Positions 1-2,032 of a stretch of 64,000 bases of DNA are shown piece after piece. The notes beneath the pieces are model-generated. The model was not told the DNA's origin. It saw only the letters and a list, made by a program, of their open reading frames with translations, and ran no database searches. The DNA comes from an uncultured Flavobacteriales bacterium. GTDB taxonomy: Bacteria > Bacteroidota > Bacteroidia > Flavobacteriales_E > Vicingaceae. Made by a program: the position numbers and the translations under genes. Numbering within the stretch: the stretch's first letter is position 1; each line of letters starts with the position of its first letter. The stretch covers positions 1-64,000 of the forward strand of contig CAJQLW010000013.1 in the NCBI GenBank assembly GCA_905479325.1, written 5' to 3'.

Positions 1-537
1 CTGTAGTTTGTAAACCCATTTACATATGTACCACAAGCTTCAGTCAATTCAACTGTTACTGTGAAATTATCGCGATCTGGCACACAGATATTCATCTTAA
101 AGTCATTTGGATCACCATCGTTTGTGCTATCCCAGTGCCAATAAGCCCATCTTTTATTGCCATTCCAATTTGAGCAGTTAGAGGCTCTCACAGTAATTGT
201 AACGAAATTTTTATTAGCATAAGCCATGCCCGTGACGTTACCTGGATTAGTCGCTTGTGTATTGGAGCTGGAAAATATACCACCTGAAGTCGGGTAAAAA
301 CTTGTCGCCGACGATTTTCTTTGCGGTACAATTACATCCATATTTAATGGCACCCAAAGCTTAATTGGTATTTCTTTAGATCCACAGTCATTGGTGCCTG
401 AAGAGGCATTGCAGTTGTTGCCTGAGCTATTCTGTACTGGAGGATTACTTTGCCCCCCCCCACGCCGTAGAACCATTGTCGTCACAAGCAAATAAGCCTA
501 AACTAATAAGGTAAGGAACAAATCTTTTTCGTAACAT
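1..537 (-). pseudogene. Surface-type lipoprotein, partial, frameshifted at a poly-G tract
   Basis: An ATG at 537 opens a clear lipoprotein signal peptide, MLRKRFVPYLISLGLFAC, followed by acidic residues (CDDN), like the surface-export signal of Bacteroidota lipoproteins. This frame runs into nine consecutive G (plus-strand C at 453-461) and stops at 447-445 after about 30 codons. The frame that uses the same tract one base later is open to the window edge for about 150 codons. It encodes a Cys-, Asn- and Trp-containing extracellular-looking domain (for example RWAYWHWDS and two NC motifs). Eight or eleven G would join signal peptide and domain. The long frame has its own ATG at 476, but a protein from there would have no export signal. 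I do not recognise the domain. Either a phase-variable gene in the OFF state, a pseudogene, or a homopolymer error; the 3' end lies outside the window. Confidence 0.7.
453..461 (-). repeat. Poly-G homopolymer (9 G on the coding strand)
   Basis: Nine C on the plus strand, a striking run in low-GC DNA. It lies about eight codons after the lipoprotein cysteine and marks the exact place where the reading frame changes. Slipped-strand changes here would switch the downstream frame. Confidence 0.9.
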
Positions 538-587
538 ATCATGAAATTAATTAAAAAAGTAGCGAACCAACAAATTTTTCAATAAAA

Positions 588-616
588 AGGCAGCATCGTT
601 TTACTCGATGCTGCCT
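588..616 (-). terminator. Intrinsic terminator after the PKD protein gene
   Basis: Perfect 11-bp stem, AGGCAGCATCG paired with CGATGCTGCCT, with a 7-base loop. On the minus strand it is followed by a T-rich run. It sits about 30 bp past the stop codon of the gene ending at 647. Confidence 0.9.
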
Positions 617-646
617 TTCAACTATTTATTAAACTAATCTTTGAGA

Positions 647-2032
647 CTACTGCTTAACGAATTTTTTAATTTCTTGAGTAGCTCCATTGTTCAATACCAT
701 GAAATACAATCCACTTTCAAGTGAACTAATTTCAAAGTTCTTTACAATGCCTGGATTTTGGTTCAACTGCTCCATTACAATTCTTCCTGAAATATCCATA
801 ACTCTAATGTTAACACTGCTTTCTACAGATGTTAAGTCTAATGAGATTTGGTTAGTTGCAGGGTTAGGGTAAAGGTTAATGCTATTTAAATCATTCACTT
901 CAGTTAATCCTACCGCCAATGGGTTTTGAACTCTAATTCCGAAACCTGATTTTAAGTTACCAAGAGAGTCCATACCAACCGTATCGCAGAATGTAGAGGT
1001 ACAATTTAAAATTGAATCAGTAATTGTTAAGCATACAACATAAGATCCAAAATTTTGGTACTGGTGAATTGGAGTTCTACCTGAACCTGTAATTCCATCA
1101 CCAAAGTCCCAAGAGTAAAAATGCGAACCAAAGTTGCTAGAAGTGTTGTATAACACTACTCCGTAAGCTACAGAAGAATCTTTTGCTTTGGTAAAAGAAG
1201 CATTACAAGACGATGGATTTCCAATTTGAACAAAAACACTGTCAGAATAAGTTGCAGAGCAATTTGTCAACGAATCGAAGTAGTTTAATGTTACAGTATA
1301 GCTTCCGGCAGCAGCATAAGTATGTGTTGGGCTAATAGCGTTACTAAAGTTACCATCTCCAAAATTCCAGCTCATGTAAATGAATGCTCCGTTCAAAGGA
1401 TTTGATAGGTTAGTGAAACTTACAGCACCGTTACTACCAGTTTGATAGCTAAAGTTAGCGCTGCAGAAGTTTACAAAAACAGAATCTATACTCATACAAG
1501 TTGAACCCTGAGCATCTGTAACGTTTAATATTACAGCATATCCTCCCGGAGAGTTATACGTATGCGTTGGGTTAGCCATAGTTGAACTTCCTCCGTCACC
1601 AAAAGACCAAGCATAAGTAAATGGCGCTGTTCCTCCTGTAATTAAGCTTGTAAAGCTTACAGAGTTATTTGAATTAATCGTATAGCCAGTGGTTAGGTTA
1701 CAAGGCGTTGGATTTGAGCCTCCCGTTACTGTAACTGCCTTACAAATTGTGTCATAGCAAAACTGTAAACTGTCGTAAATTGTTAAACAAGCAATATAGG
1801 TTCCCGCTGAAGCGTATGTGTGGCTTGGATTTGTTCCGAATCCATTGCTGCCATCTCCGAAATTCCAATTTTGGAAAGGAGAAAAAACATTTGGAGAGTA
1901 AAAAGACGAGTCTTGAAAGTTAACGGTTAAATTGTTTATTGAAAATTGAAAGTCTGCTTGGCAAGACTGGGCATTTGTTTGTGCTGCACCCAGTATAAAA
2001 AGGGATACAATTAATAAGTAGATTTTTTTCAT
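647..2032 (-). CDS. PKD-domain protein with T9SS C-terminal sorting domain
   Basis: 461-residue secreted protein. An N-terminal signal peptide (about residues 1-22, ending TNAQ) is followed by four PKD-type Ig-like repeats. Each has the W-x-FGDG core and an HTY/HQY-type strand (NWNFGDG near 56, AWSFGDG near 141, SWNFGDG near 222, SWDFGDG near 308). The last 75 or so residues are a type A T9SS sorting domain: NLYPNPA, then a DISGRIV-type strand and an ending in IKKFVKQ. Known role of such proteins: export through the outer membrane by T9SS and attachment to the surface, or release. No catalytic domain is visible, so it may be adhesive or structural. It stands alone with its own terminator. The domain call is sure; the function is unknown. 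Confidence 0.9.
   Translation of the reverse strand: MKKIYLLIVSLFILGAAQTNAQSCQADFQFSINNLTVNFQDSSFYSPNVFSPFQNWNFGDGSNGFGTNPSHTYASAGTYIACLTIYDSLQFCYDTICKAVTVTGGSNPTPCNLTTGYTINSNNSVSFTSLITGGTAPFTYAWSFGDGGSSTMANPTHTYNSPGGYAVILNVTDAQGSTCMSIDSVFVNFCSANFSYQTGSNGAVSFTNLSNPLNGAFIYMSWNFGDGNFSNAISPTHTYAAAGSYTVTLNYFDSLTNCSATYSDSVFVQIGNPSSCNASFTKAKDSSVAYGVVLYNTSSNFGSHFYSWDFGDGITGSGRTPIHQYQNFGSYVVCLTITDSILNCTSTFCDTVGMDSLGNLKSGFGIRVQNPLAVGLTEVNDLNSINLYPNPATNQISLDLTSVESSVNIRVMDISGRIVMEQLNQNPGIVKNFEISSLESGLYFMVLNNGATQEIKKFVKQ

Follow-up and report, generated by a model that had tools for sequence, protein, structure and literature searches.

A lipoprotein signal peptide, a nine-G tract and a change of frame

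The window analysed here is the first 64 kb (64,000 nucleotides) of contig C13 in a draft assembly of 96 contigs (92% complete) from an uncultured Flavobacteriales bacterium. Because base 1 of the window is also base 1 of C13, the gene described below, a predicted lipoprotein gene on the minus strand, is cut at its 3′ end. Its start codon and lipoprotein signal peptide, up to the tract, lie at 462..537 (minus strand), as placed by translation, a signal-pattern scan and the best codon-usage frame. The sequence places the nine-G tract directly after it at 453..461 (minus strand), which appears as C9 on the plus strand (CCCCCCCCC). Translation from the ATG at 537-535 gives MLRKRFVPYLISLGLFAC, continued by DDNGSTAWGGAK and ended by a TAA stop at 447-445 (445..447, minus strand). 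The first of these segments is the signal peptide, with the lipobox LFAC; after the Cys come an acidic DDNG and a stretch ending in STAW that leads into G9, so that the tract begins 8 codons past the lipobox Cys. The signal peptide with its acidic motif at the ATG at 537, and the passage of its frame through nine G before it ends, had been proposed in the preliminary description and are borne out by translation.

Acidic residues after the lipobox Cys form the consensus export signal of Bacteroidota surface lipoproteins. LFAC-DDNG conforms to this predicted signal, and the relatives contain other lipoproteins with LFSC followed by acidic residues. The window contains a single match to a strict lipoprotein-signal pattern, at the gene starting at 537, vs. 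0.225 per Markov-simulated sequence.

A second minus-strand frame, identified from the ORF list and codon scores, runs without a stop for 150 codons from the tract to window base 3 (3..452, incomplete) and encodes an orphan region rich in Asn, Ser, Thr and Cys. It has an ATG of its own at 474..476 (minus strand; read as 476-474), five codons ahead of the tract, from which an unexported product beginning MVLRRGGGQSN would be possible. The signal frame and the second frame join when the tract is one G shorter or two longer, as originally described. A codon-usage score trained on the long ORFs of the window favours the signal frame upstream of the tract (2.8, vs. –4.9 and –10.8 for the other two frames) and the second frame downstream of it (11.6 vs. 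–29.2 and –83.2), while the antisense frames downstream of the tract all score negatively. The switch of frame in codon bias thus falls exactly at G9 and, together with the open second frame, makes a single gene interrupted at this point the natural reading. G9 also lies within the range used to define hypermutable tracts (7–8 or more G/C; threshold from PMC6321876), and it sits inside a coding region where a change of length would shift the frame, as indicated by the codon bias and the 150 stop-free codons. The signal peptide further predicts an exported product, which is usual, not obligatory, for contingency loci.

The upstream neighbour (647..2032, minus strand) encodes a protein found by domain search to contain four PKD domains and a type IX secretion system (T9SS) sorting domain, and is conserved beside dxs in the nearest relatives. 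Between the two genes, a strong hairpin with a T tail at 585..619 (minus strand; –22.6 kcal/mol, z –7.5) is, by its folding energy, the probable terminator of the PKD gene, although a pattern scan did not report it. This hairpin probably sets the lipoprotein gene apart as its own transcription unit. A sigma-70 promoter scan gave no match, its consensus being different from the one Bacteroidota use, and an Rfam search likewise gave no match.

The nearest relatives by DXS are two uncultured Flavobacteriales assemblies, L248 (94%) and L249 (92%). Both keep the PKD gene (77% and 67%), directly followed by another PKD gene, and neither has the lipoprotein gene at the syntenic site. The 150-residue fragment has no usable homologue in Pfam, NCBIfam, PDB (by sequence) or 60 relatives, nor in 46 family genomes (E ≤ 1) or in collections of genome contigs, viral contigs and phages. 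Judged from these sequence comparisons, the lipoprotein gene is an accessory orphan. A search for its missing 3′ part found no overlapping contig end, and a search by way of the PKD gene found next in the relatives gave nothing; modelling the fragment with AlphaFold from its single sequence gave a meaningless structure (pLDDT 34).

Homopolymer runs in the genome, the family and a sister genus

At the window GC content of 36.6%, base composition predicts 0.024 G/C runs of at least nine in the window, and 4 of 100 shuffles match the observed window count of runs of at least eight; GGG makes up 11% of glycine codons. The whole genome (2.71 Mb) is expected to hold about 1.0–1.5 runs of at least nine and has two, a G10 and the window G9. 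The claim that the run is unexpected for DNA of this composition therefore stands locally but not genome-wide, where there is no excess, and the nine-G run as an anomaly of the genome was rejected. What matters is the position of the G9 run and not its existence.

Runs of 8 or more G/C occur at three places in the genome, two of which break a signal-peptide gene. One is the window tract; the other is a C8 at C39:32202-32209 (L006 1501-1508), which divides a protein with a signal peptide and TonB_C domains between two frames and is a second candidate switch in this genome. The best homologue of the downstream part (in G005) lies in an unbroken frame of 284 residues that has a signal peptide of its own. 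The third run, G10 at C3:28264-28273 (L002), lies in frame within an intact 2OG-oxygenase-like gene, whose neighbour we take, by eye, to be glycosyltransferase-like. Orthologues within the genus (82–85%) have the same Gly-Gly-Gly in mixed codons without a run, indicating that this G10 arose by synonymous change. Every coding run of exactly seven G/C is in an intact frame; one further run of seven, near a contig end, has no clear gene. A sample of A/T runs of at least nine in the same genome comprised 18 non-coding runs, 8 in intact frames and 1 at an apparent break, an A9 (L045 1501-1509) where a 181-codon frame ends 16 codons on and another takes over.

We then examined G/C runs of at least nine in 46 genomes of the bacterium's family (n = 116). 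Because an earlier codon-score classifier was too noisy, tracts were classed by ORF structure, a frame break being an ATG-started frame that ends just past the tract where another long frame begins at the tract. This placed 51 runs in non-coding DNA, 58 in intact frames and 7 at a frame break. All seven broken genes encode exported proteins by signal peptide, lipobox or T9SS sorting domain: the window gene (L013) and L223 are lipoproteins, and L065, L073, L131, L210 and L233 have signal peptides and/or T9SS-type sorting domains. In L073 and L131, the G9 break lies ahead of the C-terminal T9SS sorting domain, where slippage would cost the sorting end and not the whole protein. Among the intact genes that could be placed, 29 are exported and 26 are cytoplasmic or inner-membrane, the latter two groups including in-frame run carriers that are presumably exonuclease III, shikimate kinase and superoxide dismutase. 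Breaks therefore affect 7 of 36 exported genes vs. none of 26 cytoplasmic or inner-membrane genes (Fisher one-sided p = 0.017, or 0.035 after leaving out the tract-rich genus), in a test that rests on seven breaks and on locations assigned manually, using the N and C termini and any recognisable family. The 95% upper limit corresponding to 0/26 is about 11% per tract.

An assembler that miscounted such runs would break cytoplasmic genes too, so the absence of such breaks makes assembly error less likely as their usual cause, and lowers the likelihood of this explanation for the window tract. The restriction of breaks to exported genes fits phase variation and the tolerated loss of dispensable surface genes alike. 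One intact lipoprotein gene, L236 (genome G063), is laid out like the window gene but in frame, with C9 shortly past the lipobox Cys, about 35 codons into the open frame. Outside the sister genus described below, a by-eye count placed tracts within 60 codons of the 5′ end in about 4 of 22 exported genes, no clear excess.

Two genomes of this sister genus, G016 and G025, contain a conserved signal-peptide sequence, NYLKISLLC..MSIF..SA.SQN, at 15 places, and nearly all of these are preceded by a C tract of 8–15 (some interrupted) between a presumptive start and the signal peptide. In four copies of this multi-copy secreted family (L348-L362, L059, L130, L135, L138, L139, L167, L209 and L218-L220) an upstream ATG is in frame, whereas most of the others are out of frame; the copy counts are approximate, since many copies lie at contig ends and two such ends (L356 and L360) look identical. 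Two further secreted families of the genus start with MKHL or MKYL immediately followed by C9–C12 (L134, L215, L208, L207 and L142), and the glycine-rich L207 and L142 seem to be out of frame. Slippage would produce just such a mixture of tract lengths among near-identical copies, and the 15-place family is, from its sequences, a strong candidate for a contingency locus. Its copies are the strongest support for G/C slippage switching within the bacterium's family and constitute stronger evidence than that of the window. A search for this gene family in the window's genome gave no matches.

Slippage switching and its alternatives

The best-supported single reading, which we put forward tentatively at close to an even chance, is that G9 is a site of slippage-driven phase variation in a lipoprotein gene that was caught in the OFF state. 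Replication slippage in the G tract just past the signal peptide would switch expression of the lipoprotein: in the G9 state, translation from the ATG at 537 would yield only a 30-residue stub (OFF), and a tract one G shorter or two longer would join the signal peptide and the domain after it into one protein (ON). Such a switch would entail a tract length that varies reversibly in the population and a domain located at the cell surface. This reading is based on what was observed: a signal peptide followed by the tract, a change of frame exactly there, and breaks confined to exported genes in the family. The candidate phase switch of the preliminary description accordingly gains partial support from the anatomy of the locus, the family comparison, the C39 break and the sister genus, and in this orphan, 3′-cut gene it stays a candidate. 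A frameshift fixed in a dispensable gene, or a consensus sequence wrong by one base, would look no different here.

Much of the same evidence bears on a fixed frameshift, in which a chance G run slipped once and inactivated a dispensable, recently acquired lipoprotein gene, leaving a young pseudogene without selected switching. The orphan gene, its absence from the syntenic site of the two nearest relatives and the agreement of the genome's run counts with composition all favour this explanation, and breaks limited to exported, often dispensable, genes would fit it equally. However, the second frame keeps 150 codons without another stop and normal codon usage, implying that any decay is very recent, and tract lengths differ between copies in the sister genus. 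We consider a fixed frameshift somewhat unlikely. It is also unlikely that the break is an assembly or consensus error and that an intact gene has a true tract of eight (or eleven) G: the contig end of this draft assembly is only 452 bases from the tract, where coverage may be poor, and one type of +1 error would account for both breaks in the genome, but the longer G10 of the same assembly is in frame, as are the runs of at least nine in 26 of 26 cytoplasmic or inner-membrane genes of the family.

Finally, protein might be made despite the break: RNA polymerase or the ribosome might slip on the G run, or translation might begin at the ATG at 476-474 and give an unexported form. Long homopolymers can cause transcriptional slippage, and the second frame does have its own ATG five codons ahead of the tract; yet with a product that is not exported a complete lipoprotein signal peptide would go to waste, and the second frame has a composition that looks extracellular, so that we regard this as very improbable.

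Slippage switching in a wider context

The best-documented cases of slippage phase variation come from host-adapted bacteria such as Neisseria, Campylobacter and Helicobacter, and the best-known switches of Bacteroidota, a group that includes the flavobacterium Ornithobacterium hominis, are DNA inversions. None of the literature searched describes switching by slippage in environmental Flavobacteriales, which does not prove that no such paper exists. It is plausible, though somewhat less likely than not, that a largely uncultured Flavobacteriales family switches lipoproteins and type IX-secreted proteins by poly-G/C contingency loci, a Bacteroidota slippage phasome. With the same reserve, such a phasome may span single orphan genes, as in the window, to multi-copy families with C8–C15 tracts, as in the sister genus. 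If true, this would give environmental populations a simple way of diversifying their surfaces or escaping phages, and the switching would be readable directly from existing metagenome reads; the window's own contribution is one candidate gene.

A putative phase-variation mechanism is reported for the FSD adhesin genes of O. hominis (PMC13183296). Like the predicted product of the window gene, these adhesins are Bacteroidota surface proteins with proposed phase variation, but of a different gene family. It has been suggested that homopolymeric tracts close to the start of a gene serve prokaryotes in general as a means of inactivation, one example being the poly-A tract of inlA (PMC2831843). 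The window tract is similarly close to the 5′ end, where slippage would leave a short peptide; unlike that of inlA, it is a G tract.

In Campylobacter, G/C runs of 7 or more serve as the threshold for candidate phase-variable genes, and nine is the commonest length (53%) of putatively phase-variable poly-G/C tracts (PMC6321876). Unlike the poly-G/C contingency loci of Campylobacter, Neisseria and Helicobacter (PMC6321876, PMC3786947, PMC2823697), the window presents one orphan gene, known from one assembled tract length, in an AT-rich uncultured genome with few tracts and no rich phasome. It resembles those loci, which often encode surface proteins, in having a G/C tract in the coding frame and an apparent OFF frame, and the length of its tract is the modal length of nine in Campylobacter.
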